IMG/VR virus record: IMGVR_UViG_3300003324_000461
Location: 1-24,992 of that record
Reading direction: 5' to 3' (one strand)
DNA from: a virus
Length of the DNA: 24,992 nucleotides
The notes below the pieces were generated by a model. The model was not told the DNA's origin, did not search any database, and worked only from the letters and a program-made list of their open reading frames with translations. Below, one piece after another: positions 3,309 to 24,900 of this stretch. Each line of letters starts with the position of its first letter. Position 1 is the stretch's first letter. Made by a program: the position numbers and the translations under genes.

Positions 3309-3357
3309 CGCGTTCGAGCTCGACCCCGCCGACCAGGTGCTCACCCTCCGAGCGTGA
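3082..3357 (+). CDS. Possible small protein; only the last 50 residues look coding
   Basis: This frame overlaps the zinc-ribbon frame. Its first half is an Arg/Ala/Cys-rich shadow. Its second half looks real: an alpha-helical AAVLAVLREALVALFAGG stretch, then a beta segment RVVLDDGSAFELDPADQVL with high third-position G+C. It ends in a GTGA overlap with the following gene. No start codon is placed sensibly for that half, so it may be the 3' part of the zinc-ribbon gene after a frame change near 3200. The codon-aligned antisense frame also looks coding here, so confidence is low. Confidence 0.3.
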   Translation: MRSRTRCGAPWFRRATERACFACSALIAMRRGAASTGPLAVARSFRLRLRAAVLAVLREALVALFAGGRVVLDDGSAFELDPADQVLTLRA

Positions 3358-3560
3358 TGCGCAGGCCGCCCGTGCCTCGTCGTCGCGCGGAGCCGGTCTG
3401 GCTCTGGCTTTGGCGGCGAGATCGGAAGTGGGGCGATCCCTCGCCGCTCTGGGTCTACCTGCCGGGCGTCCGCACGCATGACGATCCGGTGTGGGCATGG
3501 GCGGTAGAGATCCCGCTCCCGTTCGGTCTGACGGTCCGTGTCGGCAAGTGTCGACGCTAG
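3357..3560 (+). CDS. Small basic Trp-rich hypothetical protein, 67 aa
   Basis: It starts at ATG 3357, or GTG 3354 one codon earlier; either start overlaps the preceding TGA. The N-terminus is Arg/Pro-rich, followed by a Trp-rich segment (PVWLWLWRRDRKWGD) and a likely beta-sandwich tail. There is no Cys pair and no convincing membrane span. I do not recognise a family. The tight upstream overlap and ordinary codon use support a real gene. It is followed by a CCGAACCTA element and a new start. Confidence 0.5.
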   Translation: MRRPPVPRRRAEPVWLWLWRRDRKWGDPSPLWVYLPGVRTHDDPVWAWAVEIPLPFGLTVRVGKCRR

Positions 3561-5019: not shown

Positions 5020-6773
5020 TGGCCGGCCTCGCCGAGGCGGCGGCGGCGGCCGCGCGCGAGCTCGAGCTCCGGTTCGCGGCCGAGGAGCAGCGCCAGATCG
5101 AGCTGACCGCACAGGAGCGGTGGGCGCGCGACCCGGTCGGCTGGATCAACCAGCACGTGTGGATCGCGAGCGTGTTCGCCGACGACGGCATCCGCCGCCG
5201 CGTCAGGCCGATCCGGATGCGCCTGTTCCCCGATCAGGAGCGCACGATCGGCGCCTGGATCGACCTCGACCAGCTCGCCGCAGCGGGGGAGCTGCGGTTC
5301 CGGAACGTGGTGATCGAGAAGTCGCGCCAGATCGGGGAGACGTGGCTGTTCGCCGCCGTCATCTGCTGGATCCTGCTCCACCATCGCGTCGTCGGCGGCG
5401 CGCTTCACACGAACGGGAACGAGATCGACGATGGCGGCGAGCGGAACACACTCAAGAGCCTGTTCGGGAAGGTCCGCTACATCGCCGACCGCGTCGACCG
5501 TGATCGCGCGCCCGGCCTCGGCCGGCTGCGGTTCTGGCCGCTGTCGAACCAGGGGCCGGCGAAGATCGAGAACCTGCAGACCGGGTCGATCGTCTACGGG
5601 GAGGGGCAGAAGGATTCGCCGTTCCGCGGCTCCACGCTCGACTACGCGCTGATCGACGAGGCGGCGTTCGTCCGGCACGGCGAGCTCGTCCACGGCGCGA
5701 TCGACGACGCCTGCCCGGCCGGGAAGGCGTACCTGTCGACCGTGAACGGCGACGACAACGTGCACGCCCGCCTCGCCGACCAGGAGCCCGAGGGGTGGAC
5801 GTATCTGCGGCTGCACTGGTCGACGCACCCGGTGTACGGGCAAGGCGTCCACGTCGCCGGCGACGACCCCGGCTGCGCGCTCTGCGCCGGCGTCCTCGCC
5901 GGGCTCGACTGGACGCCGCGCGCGCCGGTCGCGCACCGCTACCCCGGCAAGCTCACCTCCCCCTGGTACGACCAGGCGGTGATCGGCAAGACCGACGAGC
6001 AGGTCGCCCGCGAGCTCGACATCGACCGTGAAGCAGCGCTCACCGCCCGCGTCTACAGCGAGTTCCAGACCGAACGCCACGTCGTCCCCGAGGGGATCAG
6101 GTACGACCCGGCGCTGCCGGTCGAGTTCGCCTGGGACTTCGGCCTCGACGTCACCGCGGTGGTCGTGCTGCAGGACGCGCCGCGCGAGCTGAACGCGATC
6201 GGGCTGCTCGAGGTCGGCGACCGTGTCGGCACGACCGCCACCCCCGAGCTCGTGGCGGCCGCGCTCCGCGAGCTGCTGCTCCGCCTCGGCGTCCCGGCCC
6301 GCGAGACGACACCGTTTTGGACGTTGAAGATGCAGGGCTACGGTGACCCGTCGGGCGAGTACGGGCGCACCACGGGACCCTCCGAGTTCATCGCGTACCG
6401 CCGGCAGGGGTTCTCGATCATCGGGCCGCCGCGACACCTGCAGCGCGTCGAGACGACGATCGCGGCGGTGAAGCGGCTGCTGCTCGGCACCCCTAAGCCG
6501 CTCCGGATCTGCGGCGTGAACGCCGCCGAGCTCGCCCGCCACTTCCGAAACAACCGTTGGCCCGTCGACCCGTACTCGGGGAACCGGCGGAAGGGTTCGA
6601 CCAGGCCGGAGGACGACATCCACAACCACGCGCTGCGGGCGCTCGCCTACTACGCGGTCGCGAAGTTCCCGCCGCCGGTCGAGCACGACCCGGAGTTCGA
6701 CGGTGCCGCCGGCCGGTCGCCGCACCGCCGCCGTGACGGGGTCGGCGACGTCCGCTACGACATGCCGCTCTAG
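5019..6773 (+). CDS. terL: Terminase large subunit (Mu gp28-like packaging ATPase and nuclease)
   Basis: This 584-aa protein starts at ATG 5019 in a TGATG overlap. The ATPase domain has the terminase-type P-loop EKSRQIGETW (residues about 100-109, Lys101) and a Walker B LIDEAAF with Asp213 and Glu214. The C-terminal RNase H-like nuclease shows FAWDFGLDVTAVVVL (first acidic residue), YGDPSGEYG, and DDIHNHALRALAYYA with the last acidic pair. It pumps DNA into the prohead through the portal encoded next and cuts the concatemer. Its length is normal for the family. After the stop there is a 20-bp gap holding the second CCGAACCTA element. Confidence 0.93.
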   Translation: MAGLAEAAAAAARELELRFAAEEQRQIELTAQERWARDPVGWINQHVWIASVFADDGIRRRVRPIRMRLFPDQERTIGAWIDLDQLAAAGELRFRNVVIEKSRQIGETWLFAAVICWILLHHRVVGGALHTNGNEIDDGGERNTLKSLFGKVRYIADRVDRDRAPGLGRLRFWPLSNQGPAKIENLQTGSIVYGEGQKDSPFRGSTLDYALIDEAAFVRHGELVHGAIDDACPAGKAYLSTVNGDDNVHARLADQEPEGWTYLRLHWSTHPVYGQGVHVAGDDPGCALCAGVLAGLDWTPRAPVAHRYPGKLTSPWYDQAVIGKTDEQVARELDIDREAALTARVYSEFQTERHVVPEGIRYDPALPVEFAWDFGLDVTAVVVLQDAPRELNAIGLLEVGDRVGTTATPELVAAALRELLLRLGVPARETTPFWTLKMQGYGDPSGEYGRTTGPSEFIAYRRQGFSIIGPPRHLQRVETTIAAVKRLLLGTPKPLRICGVNAAELARHFRNNRWPVDPYSGNRRKGSTRPEDDIHNHALRALAYYAVAKFPPPVEHDPEFDGAAGRSPHRRRDGVGDVRYDMPL

Positions 6774-6779
6774 GCGGAG

Positions 6780-6788
6780 CCGAACCTA
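6780..6788 (+). promoter_or_regulatory. CCGAAYCTA start-associated element, copy 2
   Basis: CCGAACCTA lies 5 bases (GGATC) before GTG 6794 of the portal gene, in the gap after the terminase stop. There is no Shine-Dalgarno sequence in this gap. Confidence 0.75.
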
Positions 6789-6793
6789 GGATC

Positions 6794-8161
6794 GTGCGCC
6801 TGCTCGGCCTCGACATCACACGCCGCAACGCCACCGCCACCGCGCCGCCGCGCGGCGAGTACGGCACCGACCGGGAATGGTGGGCCGCCCAGTACGAGGC
6901 GGGCGGCCCCGACATCAACCCCGTCCTCTCCGGGCAGGCGAAGTACGACGTCTACGACGAGATGGCGCTCACAGACAGCGTGGTCAAGAGCCTGCTGTGG
7001 ATGCAGAGGCTGCCGATCCGGGGCGCCACCTGGGAGCTCGACCCCGCCTCGGAGGACGGGCAGGATCTCCTCGTCCGGGACGTGGTCGCCCGCAACCTCG
7101 GCGTCGGCGACTGGGAAGGCGACGGGCACCTCGCGGCCCCGTGGCCGCGGCAGCTCGACCAGGCGCTGCTCGCGCTGCGGTGGGGGTCGATGCTGGAGGA
7201 GCTCGTCTGGGACGACCCCGTCCGCTGGGACTTCGACGGCACCAGTCGGCTCGTCAGGCCGCTCGCCCGGCTCGCGCCCCGGCCGCCGCGCACCGTCAGG
7301 AAGATCGAGTTCGACCAAGGGCGGATCCGCCGGGTCGAGCAGAACCTCTCCCAGACCAGGCCGATCCCGGGGGACAAGCTCGCGTTCACGGTGCTCGACG
7401 AGGAGCCGGGCCGCTGGGAGGGCGTGTCCCTGCTCCGGGCCGCCTGGGGGCCGTGGGCGTTGAAGAAGCAGCTGATGATCGCGGCCGGGATCGCCTGGGA
7501 CCGGTGGGCGGCCGGGATCCCGGTCGTCCGCTACCCGACCAACGGCAGCGCCGCCGACCTCGAGAAGGCGGAGGAGATCGGCCGGTCGATCCGCACGCAT
7601 GAGCGCGCCTACGTCGCGTTCGAGGGGCCGGAGCCGACCCCTGACAACCCGAACGGGTGGAGCCTCCAGATCGAGGGCGGCGCGAGCGTGCTCCCCGACC
7701 CGGTCAATCTGCTGCAACGCTACGACCTCTACGTCCTCGCCGCCGGGCTGCAGCAGTTCATGGCGCTCGGCTCGACCCAGTCCGGTTCCAGGGCGGTGGC
7801 GGAGGTGCAGGACGAGCCGTTCTACATGGCGGTCGAGGCGATCGCCGGCGACCTCGCCGCCCAACGGCAGCAGCAGGTGATCCGCCGCATCGTCGACGTC
7901 AACTTCGGCACCGAGTACGAGGCGCCGAAGCTGCGGGTCGCGAAGATCCAGTCGGAGGACGTCGAGAAGCTCGCCCGCATCCTCGCCGACCTGCAGCAGG
8001 CCGGCTTCACGTTCAGCGACCGCGACGTCCAGAACTACGTGCGCGGGCTGAACCGGCTGCCGGAGCTGCCCGAGGCGCCGCTGCCGCCGGAGACGGTCGT
8101 GCAGCCGGAAGGCGGGGGTCTGCCGCCGGCGCCACCCGACCAGGGAGCGGCAGCGGCATGA
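6794..8161 (+). CDS. Portal protein (Mu gp29 / DUF935-like)
   Basis: This 455-aa protein has features of the DUF935/Mu gp29 portal family: ALTDSVVKSLLWMQRLPIRG near the N-terminus, the crown/stem region around GDKLAFTVLDEEPGRWEG and SLLRAAWGPWALKKQ, and a C-terminal helix with AGLQQFMALGSTQSGSRA and QQQVIRRIVDVNFG. It should form the dodecameric ring at the head vertex. Its position straight after the large terminase is the classic order. The last 30 residues are Pro/Gly-rich and probably disordered. GTG 6794 is the only sensible start, five bases after a CCGAACCTA element. Its stop overlaps the next ATG (ATGA). Confidence 0.9.
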   Translation: MRLLGLDITRRNATATAPPRGEYGTDREWWAAQYEAGGPDINPVLSGQAKYDVYDEMALTDSVVKSLLWMQRLPIRGATWELDPASEDGQDLLVRDVVARNLGVGDWEGDGHLAAPWPRQLDQALLALRWGSMLEELVWDDPVRWDFDGTSRLVRPLARLAPRPPRTVRKIEFDQGRIRRVEQNLSQTRPIPGDKLAFTVLDEEPGRWEGVSLLRAAWGPWALKKQLMIAAGIAWDRWAAGIPVVRYPTNGSAADLEKAEEIGRSIRTHERAYVAFEGPEPTPDNPNGWSLQIEGGASVLPDPVNLLQRYDLYVLAAGLQQFMALGSTQSGSRAVAEVQDEPFYMAVEAIAGDLAAQRQQQVIRRIVDVNFGTEYEAPKLRVAKIQSEDVEKLARILADLQQAGFTFSDRDVQNYVRGLNRLPELPEAPLPPETVVQPEGGGLPPAPPDQGAAAA

Positions 8162-8414: not shown

Positions 8415-9002
8415 ATGGCGCACTGGGGGTTCCGCGACGGCGAGGTGCCCGCCTATGCGCGCTGCCCGGACTGCCGCCAGCTGCTGCGCGTAGACCGCCT
8501 CGACCTCGTGGCCGAGCATCGGGCGGCGCGACATGGGCGGCCGCTGCCGAATCTGGAGGCGACGATGCTGCACCTGGTCAAGCACGCCGACAAGACCGGC
8601 CCCGAACCGGCCCGCAACCACCCCGACAAGACCGGCGCCCTCCCCAGCGACGAGCTCCCGGCCGGGGCGCTGCTCGAGCCGTGGCCGCTCGACCGGGTCG
8701 AGCTCGTCGGCGACCCGCCGGCGGAGCACAACTTCTCCGACAGCTTCGTCGCCCGGGCCCTCGCCGACGGCTACCTCGAGTTCACGAACCCGCGCGCCGC
8801 CAGCAGCCCCGTCCCGCCCGGCGTCTCCGCCTACCCCAGGGACCCGGTGATCACCGGCGACGAGATCGTGCTCCACCTCCACGGCGGCCCGCTCCGCTAC
8901 ACGATCCTCGAGCCGCCCGGCAAGTACCCCGACGACACGGAGCCGTCCGGGTGGCGCGTCTCGCACGAGTACCGCTGCCGGCTCGCCAAGGCGAAGGGCT
9001 GA
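8415..9002 (+). CDS. Hypothetical protein with N-terminal zinc-finger-like motif
   Basis: This 195-aa protein has CPDC (residues 17-20) followed by EHRAARH (about 34-40), a C2H2-like spacing that could bind one zinc. A short repeat follows (HADKTGPEPARNH and HPDKTGALP). The C-terminal half is mixed alpha/beta with no recognised fold. It lies among head genes, so a virion or assembly role is likely but not shown. A second in-frame ATG at 8565 follows a GGAGG and a near match to the start element (CCGAATCTG), so a shorter product lacking the finger is possible. It lies 26 bp after the previous CDS. Confidence 0.55.
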   Translation: MAHWGFRDGEVPAYARCPDCRQLLRVDRLDLVAEHRAARHGRPLPNLEATMLHLVKHADKTGPEPARNHPDKTGALPSDELPAGALLEPWPLDRVELVGDPPAEHNFSDSFVARALADGYLEFTNPRAASSPVPPGVSAYPRDPVITGDEIVLHLHGGPLRYTILEPPGKYPDDTEPSGWRVSHEYRCRLAKAKG

Positions 9003-9011
9003 GAGCCCGCG

Positions 9012-9452
9012 GTGGCCGACTTCACCTACAACATCGCCAAGGGCTCGATCGCAGAGAAGATCCGGGACGGCGCGAACATCCAGGTGCTCGCGCTCGCCAC
9101 CGCCGGCATCGAGACCGACGCGGTGCTGATCGACAAGACCACCGTCTCCGCCGTCGTCGCCGGGACCACGAACGAGGTCACGAACACCGGCTACGCGCGG
9201 AAGTCGATCGCGAACGCGTCCGTCACGCTCACGGTCGACAACACGAACGACCGGGTCGACGTCGACATCGCCGACCAGACCTGGACGGCGGTCGCCGCGG
9301 GGGACGGCTGGAACGATCTGGTCGTCTGCGAGGACGTCGGCGGCGCCGACACCTCCCGGGTGCCGCTCACCCAGCACGACTTCGTATTGACGCCCGACGG
9401 CAGCGATATCACCGCCCAGATCGCGACCGCCGGCTTCTTCCGCGCCTCGTAG
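9012..9452 (+). CDS. Phage structural protein (beta-rich, head or minor virion protein)
   Basis: This 146-aa protein is almost wholly beta-strand (SVTLTVDNTNDRVDVDIADQ, then LVVCEDVGGAD, then LTQHDFVLTPDGSDIT). This pattern, including a YARK/NDRVDVD core and an LTxHDF motif, is common in small structural proteins near the portal in actinobacterial phages. It has no signal peptide or Cys pairs. It begins at GTG 9012, 9 bp after the preceding stop. Whether it decorates the head or belongs to the neck cannot be told from sequence. Confidence 0.6.
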   Translation: MADFTYNIAKGSIAEKIRDGANIQVLALATAGIETDAVLIDKTTVSAVVAGTTNEVTNTGYARKSIANASVTLTVDNTNDRVDVDIADQTWTAVAAGDGWNDLVVCEDVGGADTSRVPLTQHDFVLTPDGSDITAQIATAGFFRAS

Positions 9453-9458
9453 GCGCCG

Positions 9459-9701
9459 ATGCGGTTCGGCTCCTGGTGGGCCGTCCAGCCGGGCCGCGAA
9501 CGGCTCCTAGAGCTCGGCGTGCACGTGGAGCCGCGGCGGCGGCGCACAAACAAGGGCGTCCGGTACGGCCCCTACCTAGACCTGCACCTGCCGGGGGTGT
9601 GCATGAGCGTCGGCCGCAACCCGATCTACGCGGGCGAGGCCGACTTGAAGGCGAGCACGAGCCGAGGGGGTGTCAGTGGCGACGCTGACGCAGGCTGCTG
9701 A
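9459..9701 (+). CDS. Small hypothetical protein, 80 aa
   Basis: The protein begins MRFGSWWAVQPGRERLLELG and has an Arg-rich turn (EPRRRRTNKGVRYGPY). Third-position G+C is high up to about 9665. The last 10 residues read out of frame through the start of the next gene, giving an overlap of about 32 bp, so the gene end may be fortuitous. No family is recognised. It sits between two beta-rich virion-type genes and may be co-translated with them. Confidence 0.5.
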   Translation: MRFGSWWAVQPGRERLLELGVHVEPRRRRTNKGVRYGPYLDLHLPGVCMSVGRNPIYAGEADLKASTSRGGVSGDADAGC

Positions 9702-11946
9702 CCGGCACACGGCGGTCACGACCGGCTGGACGAACCCGGGCAACGCGTTCGCGGCGGCGGGCGACAACGTCTACGCGACGGCCGCCCCCGCCAAGAACGC
9801 GACCGTCAACGGCGACTTCGGGTTCCCCGCCTTGAGCCTGCCTCCGGGCTCGACGATCCAGGCGGTCCGGCTGGTCGTCGAGTGGGGGATGACGGCCGCC
9901 GTCAACGGCGGCACCCTAGGCGTGCAGGGGCGCAACAACAACGTCGCCGACTCAGCGGCTGAGGTGACGCAGACCTCGACCGCGGAGGCCCAGTCCACGT
10001 TCGCGTTCGGCACGCTCCCGTCGCTCGCGGACCTGAAGACGGCGGGTCGTGTCGTCGGCCGGGTCCGCTGCTCGAAGGGCAACACGAACACGGCGATGAC
10101 CGGCCAGCTCGACTTCGTCCGGCTCGAGGTCGACTACACGCCGCCGACCGCCAACCAGGCGCTCGAAACCGACCTGGCGCAGCCGATCACGAGGGCGAAG
10201 TCGAAGCAGATCGGGCAGGCGAGCGAGCAAGACGCCGCGCGCCCCGTAGCGCGCCTCCTCCCCCCGGTCAGCGCGAACTTCGAGGCGGGCACCCTGGGCG
10301 CCACGATCGCGACGACCGACCCGGGCGGCGCCACCCCGTTCGACGTCGTCACCGTCGGCGTCGGCCAGGCGCTCGTCTACGGTGGCGAGCACCCGGCACG
10401 CGGCAGCCTCTCCGCGAAAGTGACACAGACCGGCTCCGGCGCCGTCTCCCGTGCCGGATGGACAACAAGGTTCGGGCGCCGGTTGGAGCACACCGGCCGC
10501 GTCTACCTGTACCTGACGGCGCTCCCGACGGGTGACAGCATCCGGTTCGCCCAGATCACCTCCGGCGGCGTGCTCGTCGTCGAGCTGCAGATCCTCACGA
10601 CCGGCGTGGTCCGTGCGATCCGTTCCGGCGCGTTCGTCGACACCAGCTCTACGGTCGCGACCGGCCAGCTGATCCGGATCGAGTACCGGATCGTCCACGA
10701 CACCGTCAACGGCCAGGTCGAGATCAAGCTGTTCAACAGCCCGGACAGCACGACACCGACCGAGACGGCGACGAGCCCGGCGAACAAGGACACCGGCGCC
10801 TACGCGGACGCCGTCTACTTCGGCAACAACGGTGGCGCCGCCGCCGCGACCTGGTGGCTCGACGAGGTCTACGCCGGCGGCACCTCCTACCCGGGCCCGG
10901 CGCCCGCTACCACGGTCGGGCAGGCGCTCGAAACCGACGCGGCGCAGCCGGTCAGCCGGTCGAAGCTACGCACGATCGGCCAGGCCACCGAGACAAGCCT
11001 CGCCCAGACGATCACGAAAGCCTCAGGCCACACCGTCACCGTCGGACAAGCGGCCGAGACCGACGTGGCGGAGCCGTTCACGGCACGGAAGACCCGCACC
11101 ATCGGCCAGCCGGCGGAAGCCTCGACCGCGCAGCCGGCCGGCCGTGTGAAGGCACGCACCATCGGCCAGACGGCCGAGACGAGCAGCTCGCAGCCGGTCA
11201 CGCGCTCGAAGCGTCGCACCCTCGGACAGCCGCTGGAGACGTCGACGAGCCAGCCCGCCACGAGACGCAAGACCCGCGCGGTCGGCCAGCCAGTGGAGAC
11301 CGACACAGCCCAGCAGGTGAGGCCGGCGCACGCGCGCACGATCGGCCAGGCCACCGAGACCGACAGCGCGCTCGCGGCCACCCACCGGAAGGCCCGCACG
11401 CTCGGCCAGGCGCTCGAGACGAGCCTCGCCCGCCTCACCGGCCGCATCAAGACCCGCCCCGCAGGGCAGGCCGCGGAGACGGACACGTCGCAGCCTGTGA
11501 GCTCGAGCGGCCACATCCTCACCGTCGGCCAGACCGTCGACACCCAGACCGCCCAGCCGGTCGGCCGGTCGAAGACCCACGCCGCCGGGCAGGCCGCCGA
11601 GACGGACACCGGCCAGCCGATCCGTCCCGCCCACTCGAAGACGATCGGCCAGGCCGCCGAGACGCAGCTCGCCACCGCGCTGGGCCGGGCGAAGCGGCTG
11701 CTCGTCGGCCTCGCCACCGAAACCTCAGCCGCCCTCACGGCCGTCGCCGCGAAGCTCCGCCCCGCAGGGCAGGCCACGGAGACCGACCTGGCGCAGACCG
11801 TCACCGTCGCCGGGCTCGTCGTCCCCGGCACCGTCACCCTCGCAAGCCGCGCCCGCACCGAGCTGACGCTCTCGACCCGCGCCGCCACCGTCACCCTCGG
11901 AACCCGTCCCCTGGCCGAGCTGGGGCTCGGCAGCCGCCGAACCTAG
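9670..11946 (+). CDS. Large virion protein with LamG-like domain and 20-residue tandem repeats
   Basis: This 758-aa protein starts at GTG 9670 (GTG 9676 is equally possible), just after GAGGGGG. Residues 1-156 form a beta-sandwich ending LDFVRLEVDYTPP. Two copies of a GQAxETDxAQP repeat follow. Residues about 200-408 look like a LamG/concanavalin-type jelly roll (RVYLYLTALPTGDSIRFAQI, ending TWWLDEVYAGG). From about 10909 to 11815 there are some 15 more copies of a 20-residue unit, consensus RTIGQAxETDxAQPVxRxKx. The tail is a short hydrophobic/Thr-rich beta segment. Likely roles are a head fibre, capsid decoration or host-binding protein, given its place between portal and capsid genes. Its TAG stop lies within a CCGAACCTA element. 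Confidence 0.7.
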   Translation: MSVATLTQAADRHTAVTTGWTNPGNAFAAAGDNVYATAAPAKNATVNGDFGFPALSLPPGSTIQAVRLVVEWGMTAAVNGGTLGVQGRNNNVADSAAEVTQTSTAEAQSTFAFGTLPSLADLKTAGRVVGRVRCSKGNTNTAMTGQLDFVRLEVDYTPPTANQALETDLAQPITRAKSKQIGQASEQDAARPVARLLPPVSANFEAGTLGATIATTDPGGATPFDVVTVGVGQALVYGGEHPARGSLSAKVTQTGSGAVSRAGWTTRFGRRLEHTGRVYLYLTALPTGDSIRFAQITSGGVLVVELQILTTGVVRAIRSGAFVDTSSTVATGQLIRIEYRIVHDTVNGQVEIKLFNSPDSTTPTETATSPANKDTGAYADAVYFGNNGGAAAATWWLDEVYAGGTSYPGPAPATTVGQALETDAAQPVSRSKLRTIGQATETSLAQTITKASGHTVTVGQAAETDVAEPFTARKTRTIGQPAEASTAQPAGRVKARTIGQTAETSSSQPVTRSKRRTLGQPLETSTSQPATRRKTRAVGQPVETDTAQQVRPAHARTIGQATETDSALAATHRKARTLGQALETSLARLTGRIKTRPAGQAAETDTSQPVSSSGHILTVGQTVDTQTAQPVGRSKTHAAGQAAETDTGQPIRPAHSKTIGQAAETQLATALGRAKRLLVGLATETSAALTAVAAKLRPAGQATETDLAQTVTVAGLVVPGTVTLASRARTELTLSTRAATVTLGTRPLAELGLGSRRT
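10909..11815 (+). repeat. About 15 tandem copies of a 60-bp (20-aa) coding repeat
   Basis: Successive units read GQALETDAAQPV, GQATETSLAQTI, GQAAETDVAEPF and so on, mostly spaced by 20 codons, with some units carrying 2-3 extra residues. The copies have diverged in sequence but keep GQ, ET/ED and the basic linker. Two further copies lie near 10150-10250, before the LamG-like domain. Confidence 0.85.
11937..11945 (+). promoter_or_regulatory. CCGAAYCTA start-associated element, copy 3
   Basis: CCGAACCTA lies 4 bases (GACC) before GTG 11950. The TAG stop of the repeat protein is formed by the element's last two bases plus the next G, so the element was kept even where it overlaps coding sequence. 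Confidence 0.75.
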
Positions 11947-11949
11947 ACC

Positions 11950-12228
11950 GTGCCAGGCAGCTACGACATCGGCGACGTCATCGTCCTCACCCTCACCTTC
12001 AAGGTCTCCGGTGTCCTCACCGACCCCGACGCGGCGACCGCCTACGTCGAGGAGCCCAACGGCACCGTGACCACGATCCCCGCCGCCCGCGTCACGACCG
12101 GCGTCTGGGAAGCGAGCTTCACGCCCGTCCAGGCGGGCGAGCACTGGTGGCGCGGCCAAGGCACCGGCGCAGCCCAGGCAGCCGGCGAGGACTACTTCAC
12201 CGTCCGCGAGCAGCGCGTCACCCCGTGA
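11950..12228 (+). CDS. Small Ig-like beta-sandwich structural protein
   Basis: This 92-aa protein has a typical small phage beta-sandwich layout: YDIGDVIVLTLTFKVSG, then TAYVEEPNGTVTTI, then GVWEASFTPVQAGEHWWRG and a YFTVRE end. Such proteins lie in head-gene clusters of many actinobacterial phages and are usually annotated as structural or head-fibre-like. It has no Cys and no signal peptide. GTG 11950 follows the third CCGAACCTA element. Its stop overlaps the next GTG (GTGA). Confidence 0.65.
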   Translation: MPGSYDIGDVIVLTLTFKVSGVLTDPDAATAYVEEPNGTVTTIPAARVTTGVWEASFTPVQAGEHWWRGQGTGAAQAAGEDYFTVREQRVTP

Positions 12229-15772: not shown

Positions 15773-16714
15773 ATGCCGCAGGCAGGCGGATCGCCGACGC
15801 TGACCGTCCAGGCGCTGCTGAACCAGCCGACCCTGCTGTCGCGGGAGCTGGTCAACCTCGTCTACAAGCGGCTGATCGCCGACCAGCTGTTCGTGCGCGG
15901 CTCCGCCGACCAGGTCGCCGGCGGCGCGATGCGCTACCAGCAGTCCGAGTCGATCTTCGTCGACGACGACCCGGACGAGATCGCCGAGGGCGCCGACTTC
16001 CCGCTCACCGACTGGACGGAGGCGCTCAAGGTCGAGCCGGTCCGCCAGTACGGGTTCGGTGTCCGGATCACGAACCTCGCGATCCGCCGGAACCAGCGCG
16101 ACATGGTCGCCCGCGGCCAGCGGAAGCTCGCGAACAGGCTCGTGAAGTTCGTCGACACGAAGGCGATGGCCGTCCTCGAGGACGCGGGCGCCACCGCCGG
16201 GGTGCAGACGATGAACGCCTCCGCGGTCTGGACGACCGCGGGCACCGACATCATCGCCGACGTCGGCGCCGCCCAGGAGAAGATCGAGACCCAGGACAAC
16301 GGCTACAACGGGTTCGAGGGCGCGACGCTGGTGCTGCACACGAACATGCGGGACGCGCTGCTCAACAACACGGCGCTCCGCTCCGCGCTCCCCCGCGAGA
16401 CGCAGAACGGGCAGATCCAGACGGGGATGATGGCCCCGTTCCTCGGCCTCTCCCGGATCCTGTTCACGCCGCAGATCACCTCGACGAAGGCGCTGCTGCT
16501 CGACACGTCGATCGCCGGCACGATCGCCGACGAGCGGCCGGACGCCTCCGAGCGGTGGGTCAGCTACGACCCGGGCCCGAACTTCGCCCCGATCTACGTG
16601 AAGGTCGAGGACGACGGACGGCCGGCCGTGCACAAGCGGATCTACGCGGGCCGCTGGCCGGCGATCGCGCTGGTCGAGCCGAAGGCTGTCGTCCGGATCG
16701 ACGGGGTCGCGTGA
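15773..16714 (+). CDS. Major capsid protein (HK97-fold)
   Basis: This 313-aa protein has a capsid-type sequence: VQALLNQPTLLSRELVNLVY, then an E-loop-like region (SESIFVDDDPDEIAEGADF), a spine helix region (RNQRDMVARGQRKLANRLVK), NGYNGFEGATLVLHTNMRDA, and a P-domain end (RWPAIALVEPKAVVRIDGV). Position after protease, scaffold and decoration genes, normal length and a strong ribosome-binding site all agree. Because the scaffold is encoded separately, no N-terminal delta domain is needed and none is evident. It ends in a GTGATG overlap. Confidence 0.9.
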   Translation: MPQAGGSPTLTVQALLNQPTLLSRELVNLVYKRLIADQLFVRGSADQVAGGAMRYQQSESIFVDDDPDEIAEGADFPLTDWTEALKVEPVRQYGFGVRITNLAIRRNQRDMVARGQRKLANRLVKFVDTKAMAVLEDAGATAGVQTMNASAVWTTAGTDIIADVGAAQEKIETQDNGYNGFEGATLVLHTNMRDALLNNTALRSALPRETQNGQIQTGMMAPFLGLSRILFTPQITSTKALLLDTSIAGTIADERPDASERWVSYDPGPNFAPIYVKVEDDGRPAVHKRIYAGRWPAIALVEPKAVVRIDGVA

Positions 16715-22800: not shown

Positions 22801-23041
22801 CGGCGGCGCCTACATCGGCCGTGAGGACACGGTGCTCGCCCAGCTCACACCCGGCGAATACGTGATCGACCGGCGGCTCACGCGGGCGCTCGAGGACGTG
22901 ATCGTGAACGGCAGCCGGACGGGCGGCGACAGGCCGATCGTGGTGGAGATCAACCTCGACGGCCGCCGGTTCGCCAGGGCGGTCGCCCGGCCGATGGACG
23001 AGCAGCTCGACCGGCGAATCTCCTACCAGGTCGAGCGCTGA
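19835..23041 (+). CDS. Tape measure protein with embedded M15-like peptidase
   Basis: This 1068-aa protein starts at GTG 19835, immediately after the chaperone stop. Helical and hydrophobic segments fill residues about 75-460, including VGLLGGLKNTLVVLVGAWAG and WGALAIAAGIAASYIITHW. Residues about 555-635 hold an M15-type zinc peptidase: YHYRGQAADLAVD (His574, Asp581) and QHMDHIHVAY (His627 and His629), like D-Ala-D-Ala carboxypeptidases. This would help cut peptidoglycan during DNA entry. A long Gln/Asp/Arg/Ala-rich coiled coil covers about 700-930. The end has the usual GREDTVLAQLTPGEYVIDRR tape-measure motif. Tail length should scale with this protein, so a long tail is expected. Confidence 0.9.
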   Translation: MNRVGIEFDGASRGAVTAAKQTQEALQAVGRTASREGRNMAVFGGGVRDAERDVGKLSRGALAGSGIFRSFGRSLAFASAGFIGGYGITAAVRGAANELSESVRVAAQTRQALRSTGGQANVTARQIDQLANSLLQKTGVDDEAIKSGENLLLTFTRVRNEAGKGNDVFNQTTRAALDMSAVLGQDLQSSVLQLGKALNDPVTGMTALRRVGVLLTKDTQEQIKTLVQHGKLLEAQKIILREVTTEFGGQAAAQERAKGGIDVLRESVRNLSADFLRGLLPSVRQLIGSLQRSVNEFASNKQAQARFRDTVIGVAKAIGQVIGVIRTVVGLLGGLKNTLVVLVGAWAGFKAAGIASALAVRAANIAAAFGVSTAWKAALVSTGWGALAIAAGIAASYIITHWSKVKGWFATFWDYLKRTGNAAFAALKEIARAAVYAILQYATAAIRGLLKAASYLPVVGGKAKAALNEINDYLRKWKPDFANVRDAFAAGGASAGRAFNTAAQQAMTSYAYTAQQHGATVLRRSGTVIPATGGQTTRGSTGPITPGLAAVERLTGARVNDDFATSGHAKHSYHYRGQAADLAVDRGVWNKLFAHRQLFAELFGPWGLYHYGVRFFDATLQRQHMDHIHVAYTGGPEAVTKALSGRGGGAGPRLVIPGGGGAGGSVPTAPAAAVAGAAAGAGSSAARTAGGSLAPVFGAITSGLSKGVNQISQATRTQIGKWKKTLTSQIEQANEEAKRAFERTFSAATTTVFRQFDRVTELHVRDFNRQTEQALTQMRRGFEQQLAAFDAETQRGLARLAAPAETPAERALRQFREARDAEQRAKERADAIAAGDTERLRQLDLDDQERALQQAADASRKAADEQAAARQAAYQQQRDQLRQALEDQEALREQAFQDQRDAELQAWQEHRDDQRTQLQNDLDDWQAWIDAKKKSWAEFIAWLLAQGFTGISAPSVQRHAPTQIFPPSVAPGAAGQIPIRGPFQAGGKVGGAYIGREDTVLAQLTPGEYVIDRRLTRALEDVIVNGSRTGGDRPIVVEINLDGRRFARAVARPMDEQLDRRISYQVER

Positions 23042-24900
23042 TGGCCGACTACCCCTCGAGCATCCCCGCGATCGCCGCCAACAAGACGAACGCCACCCCG
23101 GCGGCGACGACCGGCCACGAGACGAACCCCGCCTACACCGAGGACCACGCCGCCCACCACAACAAGCTCGCCGCCGAGCTGATCGCCGCGCTCACCGAGC
23201 TCGGCGTCAACCCGTCCGGCACCTACGCCGACGTCGCCGCCCGCCTCGACGCGCTCGCCGGCGCCGGCGCCGGCGGCAACCCCTCACCAATCTGGAAGCT
23301 GAACGGGGCGACGCTCGCGAACGCGACCACCGTCACGCTCGACCGTGCGCCCGGCTGGTTGAGCGGCCAACGGGTCATCCTCGCGATCGAGGCGTACAGC
23401 GGCGCCTGCGAGATCCGCACCGCCACCAGCTACGCGGGCACCACCGTGACGCTCAGCTCCGCGCTGACCAGGGCGCACCCGAACGCTGCGACCGTCACGG
23501 TGGTCACAGATTCGGTGTCGCTGCTCCTGTTCGGCGCCTACGGCGACGGGTCCGCCGACGACACCGTCTCGATCCAGGCCGCGATCGACGAAGTCGTTCG
23601 CAACGCGAGCGGCGTCTGGATCGAAGGGCACGGCAAGACGTACAACGTCACAGCCCCCCTGTACGCGGCCACCGGCACGAGGCTCCGCGCCGGCATCCAG
23701 CGGGCGGCCGCCGGCTACGGCCCCGACGACACCACCAACGCGATGCTCGTCTCCTGCCAGGACCTGCCGGTCGCGTTCACCGCCGACGCGGCCACGGACA
23801 CCTTCACGACCAGCTCGCCGCACGGGATCGGCCAGGTCGGAAACAAGATCGCGTTCAAGGGGACGAGCCTCCCCGGTGGGATCACCGCCGGCCGCGTCTA
23901 CTACGTGAAGACGCTCCCCAACTCGACGACGTTCACGATCAGCGCCACCAGCGGCGGCGCCACCCTCGACGTGACCGCGAACGGGTCCGGCACCGCCTAC
24001 CCGGACATCAACGCGACCGAGCGGCTCTACCTGTTCGACTGGACGCTGCTCACGCAGGGGCTCGTGAAGAAGGGGATCCTCACGAACCTGCAGCAGCCGG
24101 CGATCTGGTGGAAGGCCAGGGTCGACAACGCCACCGACACCGGCGTCACGATGGGCGGCCAGGAGGCGTGGATCTTCGGGCTCCAATGCCTCACCTGCAC
24201 GGTCGGCCTGCAGCTCGGCGTCGTGGGCGACGCCACCATGACCTGCTCGCTCGTCAAGTTCTTCGGCCTCGACGTCGAGACCAGCACCACCGCCGGCGTC
24301 AAGTACGGCTACGCGACCGACATCCTGATCGACGGCTACCACGGGGAGGCCCAGCCGATCCACCACCTCCTCGACACCGGCGGCACGATGCTGAACGTCA
24401 CCTTCGTCCAACCGCACATCACCTACCGGGGAACCGACATCGGCTGGAAGATCAACGCGGGCGGCGGCTCCAACAGCAGCTACCAGATCATCGGTGCACG
24501 CGCCTACGGTGCCGGGGCGGGCGACAAGATCATCAACGACGTCGACCGGTCCCGCGACCTCGTCCTCTCCCAGCTCGACCAGCAGGGCGTCTTGCACATG
24601 CTCGTGCAGCCGGCCGGGAACGTCATCTGGCGACGGCTCGAAGGTGTCGGCGCCCGCGCCGTGCTCTCGTTCGGAACGATCCCCGCGAACAGCGTCGCAA
24701 CCCAGACGATCAGCGTCCCCGGCGCGACGAGCGCCATGGCCGCCCAGGCAAGCCCCGAAGGGAACATCGGCACCGGCCTGATCTGGTCCGCCCGCGTCAG
24801 CGCCGCCGACACCGTCACCGTCCTCGTCGGCAACGTCACCACCGGCGCCGTCGCCAGCTTCGACCAGAACTGGCGGGTAGCGGTCACGCCGGCGGCATGA
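23041..24900 (+). CDS. Tail fibre or spike with pectate-lyase-like beta-helix
   Basis: This 619-aa protein starts at ATG 23041 in a TGATG overlap with the tape measure. The N-terminus is an Ala/Thr/His-rich helical segment (TNPAYTEDHAAHHNKLAAEL) of the kind that attaches fibres or forms trimers. FGAYGDGSADDTVSIQAAID (about 168-187) is the entry motif of phage pectate-lyase-like beta-helices. The rest is Thr/Gly/Asn-rich beta. An inserted PHGIGQVGNKIAFKG domain appears near 260-310. It probably binds, and perhaps degrades, a surface polysaccharide; no catalytic residues can be named with confidence. It follows the tape measure directly, without a recognisable distal-tail protein. Confidence 0.8.
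   Translation: MADYPSSIPAIAANKTNATPAATTGHETNPAYTEDHAAHHNKLAAELIAALTELGVNPSGTYADVAARLDALAGAGAGGNPSPIWKLNGATLANATTVTLDRAPGWLSGQRVILAIEAYSGACEIRTATSYAGTTVTLSSALTRAHPNAATVTVVTDSVSLLLFGAYGDGSADDTVSIQAAIDEVVRNASGVWIEGHGKTYNVTAPLYAATGTRLRAGIQRAAAGYGPDDTTNAMLVSCQDLPVAFTADAATDTFTTSSPHGIGQVGNKIAFKGTSLPGGITAGRVYYVKTLPNSTTFTISATSGGATLDVTANGSGTAYPDINATERLYLFDWTLLTQGLVKKGILTNLQQPAIWWKARVDNATDTGVTMGGQEAWIFGLQCLTCTVGLQLGVVGDATMTCSLVKFFGLDVETSTTAGVKYGYATDILIDGYHGEAQPIHHLLDTGGTMLNVTFVQPHITYRGTDIGWKINAGGGSNSSYQIIGARAYGAGAGDKIINDVDRSRDLVLSQLDQQGVLHMLVQPAGNVIWRRLEGVGARAVLSFGTIPANSVATQTISVPGATSAMAAQASPEGNIGTGLIWSARVSAADTVTVLVGNVTTGAVASFDQNWRVAVTPAA

Follow-up and report, generated by a model that had tools for sequence, protein, structure and literature searches.

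The stretch of DNA analysed here is the IMG/VR virus record IMGVR_UViG_3300003324_000461, whose 24,992 bases, taken as a whole, we shall call the window. A PHROG search recognizes in it genes for a terminase, a portal protein, a head maturation protease, a major head protein, tail proteins, a tape measure protein and, after it, a spike-like protein. Our subject is a cassette in which a long open reading frame (ORF), at 9670-11946, codes for a protein where a unit of 20 residues, named here GQAxETD after its core, recurs in arrays, while a short gene just ahead of it codes for a 146-residue protein, p146. The unit defines a widespread, and apparently undescribed, family of phage repeats, the array gene regularly follows p146, and p146 is related to a protein of the Bxb1 tail. 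The elements of the cassette in the window are the following:

9012..9452, plus strand: p146 (146 aa), gene just upstream of the array gene; phrog_26662 E 1e-28, phrog_644 E 3.6e-7
9670..11946, plus strand: repeat protein (758 aa, GTG start), with two globular regions, 2+15 units and a short C-terminal tail
9670..10149, plus strand: N-terminal region, aa 1-160, beta-rich in a low-confidence AlphaFold2 model
10147..10266, plus strand: two units linking the globular regions, aa 160-199 (regular expression, unit profile)
10267..10911, plus strand: middle domain, aa 200-414, called 'LamG-like' in a preliminary description of this DNA
10912..11820, plus strand: main array, 15 units of 20 (21, 22) residues, aa 415-717 (regular expression, unit profile)
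11821..11943, plus strand: C-terminal tail of about 41 residues (sequence)

The pattern [VIL]GQAxETDxAQ[AP][IVL]TxxKx[RK], used as a regular expression, retrieves 17 copies of the unit, at residues 162 and 182, then fifteen from residue 417 to residue 700. Inside the main array twelve of the 14 spacings are of 20 residues, one is of 22 and one of 21. A hidden Markov model (HMM) trained on these units returns all 17 of them again, a result that is circular by itself; independent support comes from PHROG 14065, the array protein family of Hiyaa-type phages, which matches residues 414-612 (E 6.1e-18). The count of about 17 copies given in the preliminary description, two before the middle domain and fifteen after it, is therefore borne out. 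Tandem Repeats Finder reported no array at the repeat region, because the DNA copies of the unit have diverged.

Neither tblastn with the whole repeat protein against phages nor a scan of viral contigs for a peptide pattern gave a match; relatives were retrieved with the consensus of the unit as query and with a degenerate DNA pattern. The DNA pattern, which occurs once in the window where no occurrence is expected, was met in 56 viral-contig stretches and 14 genome-contig stretches, and most of the viral contigs that it matched hold arrays of the unit. With the final unit HMM we collected 98 distinct array ORFs (individual loci carry an L number below). The 77 that are uncut hold a median of 13 units (range 3-35), and among 982 successive spacings 20 residues is the commonest value (376), followed by 21 (215) and 19 (126). 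The consensus of 984 unique units, [VIL]-G-Q-A-x-E-T-D-x-A-Q-[AP]-[IVL]-T-x-x-K-x-[RK], keeps Glu7 in 97%, Ala11 in 88%, Gln4 in 85% and Asp9 in 83% of cases, position 9 being acidic in 89%; positions 2 and 14 are hydrophobic in 91% and 89%. As further independent support, the refined unit HMM gave no score at E<=0.01 on 21,191 shuffled six-frame ORFs. Units of the same protein are on average 44% identical, against 37% for units of different proteins. The array ends a median of 49 residues from the C-terminus (interquartile range 38-68 over the 98 ORFs) and starts a median of 150 residues after the ORF start; the changing domains are therefore N-terminal, although in 12 of the 98 ORFs the array is split by at least 80 residues, so that units also stand between domains. 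It had been suggested that the number of units may vary between relatives, and so it does: L130 and L100 have 6 and 15 units, though their p146 proteins are 91.7% identical. As a side observation, the C-terminal tail of the window protein (11821-11943) displays to the eye a second, fainter and shorter repeat of about 9-10 residues, [TE]xxLxxR, and the ends of other array proteins carry different short repeats (L120 and L091, for example). A search of the open-licence literature for literal unit peptides, tail wing and Hiyaa yielded no description of this repeat family together with an arm partner, nor did a search on Pam4 list anything about these proteins.

That p146 recurs in many array loci was first seen in iterative searches with the window proteins, and the association can be counted from both of its ends. 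Starting from the repeat, 70 loci were selected, of which 12 hold no array of three units and 35 extend too little upstream; in the remaining 23, all with at least 4.5 kb upstream, p146 is present on the same strand every time, the counts not being all independent since L055/L062 and L046/L069, whose contigs are of equal length, are probably the same records, and L021, L031 and L056 have identical p146. Starting from p146, we retained the best 80 of at least 413 relatives found in one scan, and the pairing is therefore established for that closest subfamily. There, an array of at least three units lies downstream on the same strand in 32 of the 33 loci with at least 6 kb downstream (median distance 2.1 kb; L140 is the exception), and upstream of p146 in one of the 47 with at least 6 kb upstream; some of these contigs were also found by the repeat pattern. 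In two prophage regions (L167 and L168) p146 is followed by proteins of 876 and 617 residues without a scored array, and in a third (L169), likewise without a scored array, it comes right after a gene of 1002 codons in the tape-measure position. Among bacterial genomes, the pair was met in an Actinomadura (L062), a Sinosporangium (L066) and a member of the Chloroflexi (L070). In the class to which the Actinomadura genome belongs, 7 of 296 genomes hold p146, as does 1 of 201 in the phylum of the Chloroflexi genome, the centre genome being counted each time.

The identity of p146 gives a hint as to the role of the pair. From profile and modelled fold together, we assign p146 to the wing-arm family, PHROG 644. 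The phrog_644 profile recognizes Bxb1 gp31 with E 1.5e-42, Hiyaa gp12 with 1.4e-8, the window p146 with 3.6e-7 and Pam4_34 with 6.4e-6. The AlphaFold2 model of p146 (predicted local distance difference test, pLDDT, 86.9) was superposed with VIA-align on chain 9d93_Ra, named 'Tail wing arm, gp31' in its PDB record and one of six such chains in the entry, with Z 9.2 and 2.3 Å for 101 of 105 residues at 23% identity. It also fits a T4 baseplate chain, 5iv5_BJ, which from its length we take to be gp7 (Z 10.4), and the fibre-tail adaptor of Ralstonia phage GP4 (PDB 8JOU, chain 8jou_a), which shares its fold with Z 8.2 over 114 aligned residues of 136 at 10% identity. The first twelve rows of the comparison are all tail, baseplate or connector chains of phages or archaeal viruses, unrelated enzymes following. 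The assignment rests on VIA-align together with phrog_644, Foldseek on p146 having given no match at E<=0.001 (best 0.16). The names gp31 and gp33 for components of the Bxb1 tail wing also figure in passages of PMC13243192 and PMC13148394.

The globular regions of the repeat protein are less readily named. Neither the N-terminal nor the middle region found anything significant among the sequences of solved structures, where the array alignment met a chance antibody match only. The N-terminal region (aa 1-160) is possibly a jelly roll, to judge from its model, of which residues 28-159 align with many unrelated beta-sandwiches at Z 5-7, including the Pam1 capsid chain 7eel_H (5.7), the T1 tail tip (5.9) and the lambda tail tip (5.7). 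The middle domain aligns with the array protein of Sinosporangium album (L066) at 29% identity over 228 columns (E 5e-8). The label 'LamG-like' finds no direct backing in the window protein, which matches no Pfam family at E<=1 and whose middle domain is poorly modelled (block pLDDT about 26-62); it becomes plausible by kinship, since the array proteins of L091 (E 1e-21), L100 (E 1e-7) and L017 (E 6e-6) match Laminin_G_3, the first two exceeding the curated cut-off of that family.

Taken together, we find it fairly probable that the gene product is an adsorption fibre, with variable N-terminal beta-sandwich, lectin-like domains placed atop a C-terminal shaft of 20-residue units, and that p146 would hold this fibre on the virion as an arm or adaptor, most likely at the tail. 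The N-terminal domains would contact glycans of the host surface, the number of units would set the reach and flexibility of the fibre, and p146 would be a constant joint on which the fibre is the exchanged part. The sequence comparisons are consistent with such a joint and an exchangeable fibre. Across 14-16 kb, L100 and L130, whose major head proteins belong to different PHROGs (371 and 10), have p146 as their sole blastn match, 79.7% identical over 469 bases (L100 5494-5962, L130 8002-8470); and among L100, L081 and L092 p146 is 87-90% identical, against 66-73% for a tail protein of 314-315 residues about 2 kb upstream. Either gene transfer or strong constraint may be at the origin of this pattern. 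In L100, a gene lying between p146 and the array (5979-7388) matches Polysaccharide lyase 14 below the threshold, which would be in keeping with depolymerases carried by the same cassette.

The place of the fibre on the virion may be approached through gene order. The preliminary description had noted that the gene lies between portal and capsid genes, and this placement is correct (portal, phrog_113, 6794-8161; major head protein, phrog_1650, 15773-16711); from it came the proposal of a head or capsid-surface fibre. When other loci are considered, the place of the cassette proves to vary. It lies between the major head and head-tail adaptor genes in L086 and in Hiyaa, after the portal and major head genes in L034, between terminase and portal in L077, before the terminase in L033, and downstream of the major head gene but upstream of the tape measure in L100. 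It comes after the tape measure gene in L013 and probably in L169, and an Actinomadura prophage (L062/L170) has the order tape measure, Dit, p146, array; the tape measure label in L169 and L171 was judged from length and place only. Because the place of the cassette varies, gene order gives no support to a head fibre, a proposal that had no other basis, and p146 is homologous to an arm of the Bxb1 tail tip: a location at the tail or neck is more likely than one at the head.

A number of observations nevertheless weigh against a tail fibre. The cassette of the window, like those of Hiyaa, L034 and L086, sits among head and neck genes rather than tail-tip genes; the top Foldseek match of the repeat protein is a chain of the Pam1 capsid shell (E 0.024), although its VIA-align Z of 5.7 is tied with dozens of beta-sandwiches; a Bas63 connector (neck) chain is among the better structural rows for p146 (Z 6.8); set directly against gp31, p146 matches weakly in sequence (hhalign probability 60 and E 8.5e-5 on 47 columns; hmmsearch E 0.29); a spike-like gene is already present in the window phage, 3' of its tape measure gene; and the tail region of Bxb1 that was examined gave no scored GQAxETD array, so that the family link does not reach the fibre. 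The first three would suit a fibre of the head or neck, with p146 as an adaptor at a vertex or at the collar, and the repeat protein as a whisker of the capsid or neck. We judge this quite unlikely, as the cassette follows tape measure or Dit genes in other loci, the family of p146 includes a protein solved in a tail tip (Bxb1 gp31), and tail tips are among the many beta-sandwiches with which the Pam1 match is tied.

Known systems help to delineate the adsorption fibre that we propose. The Bxb1 tail wing (PDB 9D93) combines gp31, its arm, with gp33, its brush, and with a base that has a carboxypeptidase domain; it resembles our cassette in that p146 belongs to the gp31 family (phrog_644, superposable model) and that both form part of a small cluster of probable adsorption genes, and it differs in that its appendage gp33 belongs to phrog_754 and that the window cassette lies among head genes. 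Another parallel is found in the Streptomyces Hiyaavirus phages (Hiyaa, Keanu, Galactica, Spocter), where gp12, gp13 and gp14 follow the same gene order as in the window: gp12 belongs to the p146 family, gp13 to phrog_14065 (E 2e-254), and gp14 to the phrog_17896 family, with a match to a head-tail adaptor. The units of gp13 differ in being too diverged for the unit HMMs to score, and this case came to light by tblastn of a consensus; the annotation of Hiyaa calls its array gene a 'minor tail protein'. The p146 homologue of Pam4 (Pam4_34) precedes a gene annotated 'polysaccharide lyase' and stands after the tape measure and baseplate genes. A nearby Pam4 gene, Pam4_36 (L075 13552-17424, 1290 aa), shows by eye GQA-like stretches and matches PG_binding_1 (E 1.8e-6); it is not counted as an array protein because the unit HMMs do not score it, and it may be a tail protein to which a degenerate array has become fused.

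The nature of the shaft deserves separate discussion. AlphaFold2 draws the array as a beta-solenoid, in which most of aa 431-600 reaches a block pLDDT of 70-84 and units have mostly two strands of about six residues, and the model superposes on the curli protein CsgA (8c50; Z 19.7, root-mean-square deviation 9.9) and on PL6 beta-helix lyases (Z about 19). The array has no sequence match to these proteins, and the likeness probably reflects a bias towards solenoids: according to PMC11795689, AlphaFold2 gives unrealistic beta-solenoids for tandem repeats, those drawn for perfect repeats being unreliable, and we do not accept the model as evidence of a solenoid. The conserved Glu7 together with an acid at position 9 would, in a parallel solenoid, stack like charges, which argues against it. 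Of the earlier suggestion of a fibrous stalk or beta-solenoid, the repeat shaft beside binding-type domains is supported; as to its fold, a shaft of trimeric beta structure or a flexible chain acting as a tether is as likely as the solenoid. One may go further and consider that the array is no stiff stalk at all, and would be a flexible, largely unfolded, charged tether or brush. This we see as somewhat unlikely. The unit is small, polar and of low complexity, its acidic positions suit the idea as much as they disfavour the modelled solenoid, and at the end of the Bxb1 wing stands a brush, gp33, whose sequence is quite unlike that of the unit and which is reported in PMC13243192 as a polyproline-II bundle, so that an arm of this kind can carry a non-globular appendage. 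Yet the strong consensus, with its alternating conserved positions and hydrophobic residues at 2 and 14, looks like a beta structure under selection, and the modelled strands, two in most units, agree with it.

The recurrence of the unit invites another interpretation, that of a docking ladder, where each unit would be a recognition motif for p146 or for another protein of the cassette, clipping the fused domains onto the virion. The unit and p146 are the two most conserved items seen in the cassette, the N-terminal regions that units are attached to differ, and units occur between domains as well; against this, one array gene per cassette is the rule (two of 103 loci have two, one of them, L026, owing to overlapping ORFs at a contig end), and we consider such a ladder unlikely. 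An extended form of the same idea is a clip-on adsorption cassette common to unrelated head and tail lineages, in which p146 recognizes the GQAxETD ladder while the number of units tunes length and avidity. We put it forward as a speculation, improbable on balance, but of some consequence if true: any binding domain fused to units could then be mounted on any virion carrying the arm.

Seen as an adsorption fibre on a p146 arm, what is new here is the repeat family, the kind of part, a fibre held by an arm or adaptor, being known. Reportedly, some 87% of the families of the PHROGs library are described as without known function. The link from p146 to a solved tail-arm protein opens an approach to hundreds of contigs (p146 has at least 413 relatives in one scan), and marks the genes that follow as likely host-recognition genes. 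It also cautions against inferring a 'head fibre' from gene order. Furthermore, repeat shafts that nature has varied on a single conserved joint would make a good system for relating fibre length to adsorption.

The surroundings of the cassette in the window comprise the following genes:

6794..8161, plus strand: portal protein, phrog_113 E 4e-48 (context)
8415..9002, plus strand: p195, small protein 5' of p146, no PHROG match
11950..12228, plus strand: 92-aa protein directly 3' of the array gene, phrog_17896 E 0.002
15773..16714, plus strand: major head protein, phrog_1650 E 1e-60 (context)
23041..24900, plus strand: tail spike/fibre-like protein, 3' of the tape measure gene; weak matches to PHROG tail families, best named E 4e-5

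The last of these is a possible second adsorption protein of the window phage. The 92-aa protein, possibly Ig-like from its sequence, shares phrog_17896 with Hiyaa gp14 (E 4e-59), and relatives of it lie within 400 bases after the array in 7 of 88 loci. Relatives of p195 are more frequent companions: of the 74 p146-selected loci that extend 1.5 kb or more upstream, 48 have one within 1.5 kb upstream of p146, usually abutting it. In p195 of the window, a CxxC pair lies close to the N-terminus. Finally, two small ORFs of the plus strand, 9459-9701 (80 aa; no PHROG, and no relative among the collected loci) and 3354-3560 (68 aa), could be tiny real genes. By eye, they share a stretch resembling LP[GF]xxxxVG[RK], which reads LPGVCMSVGR in the former and LPFGLTVRVGK in the latter.

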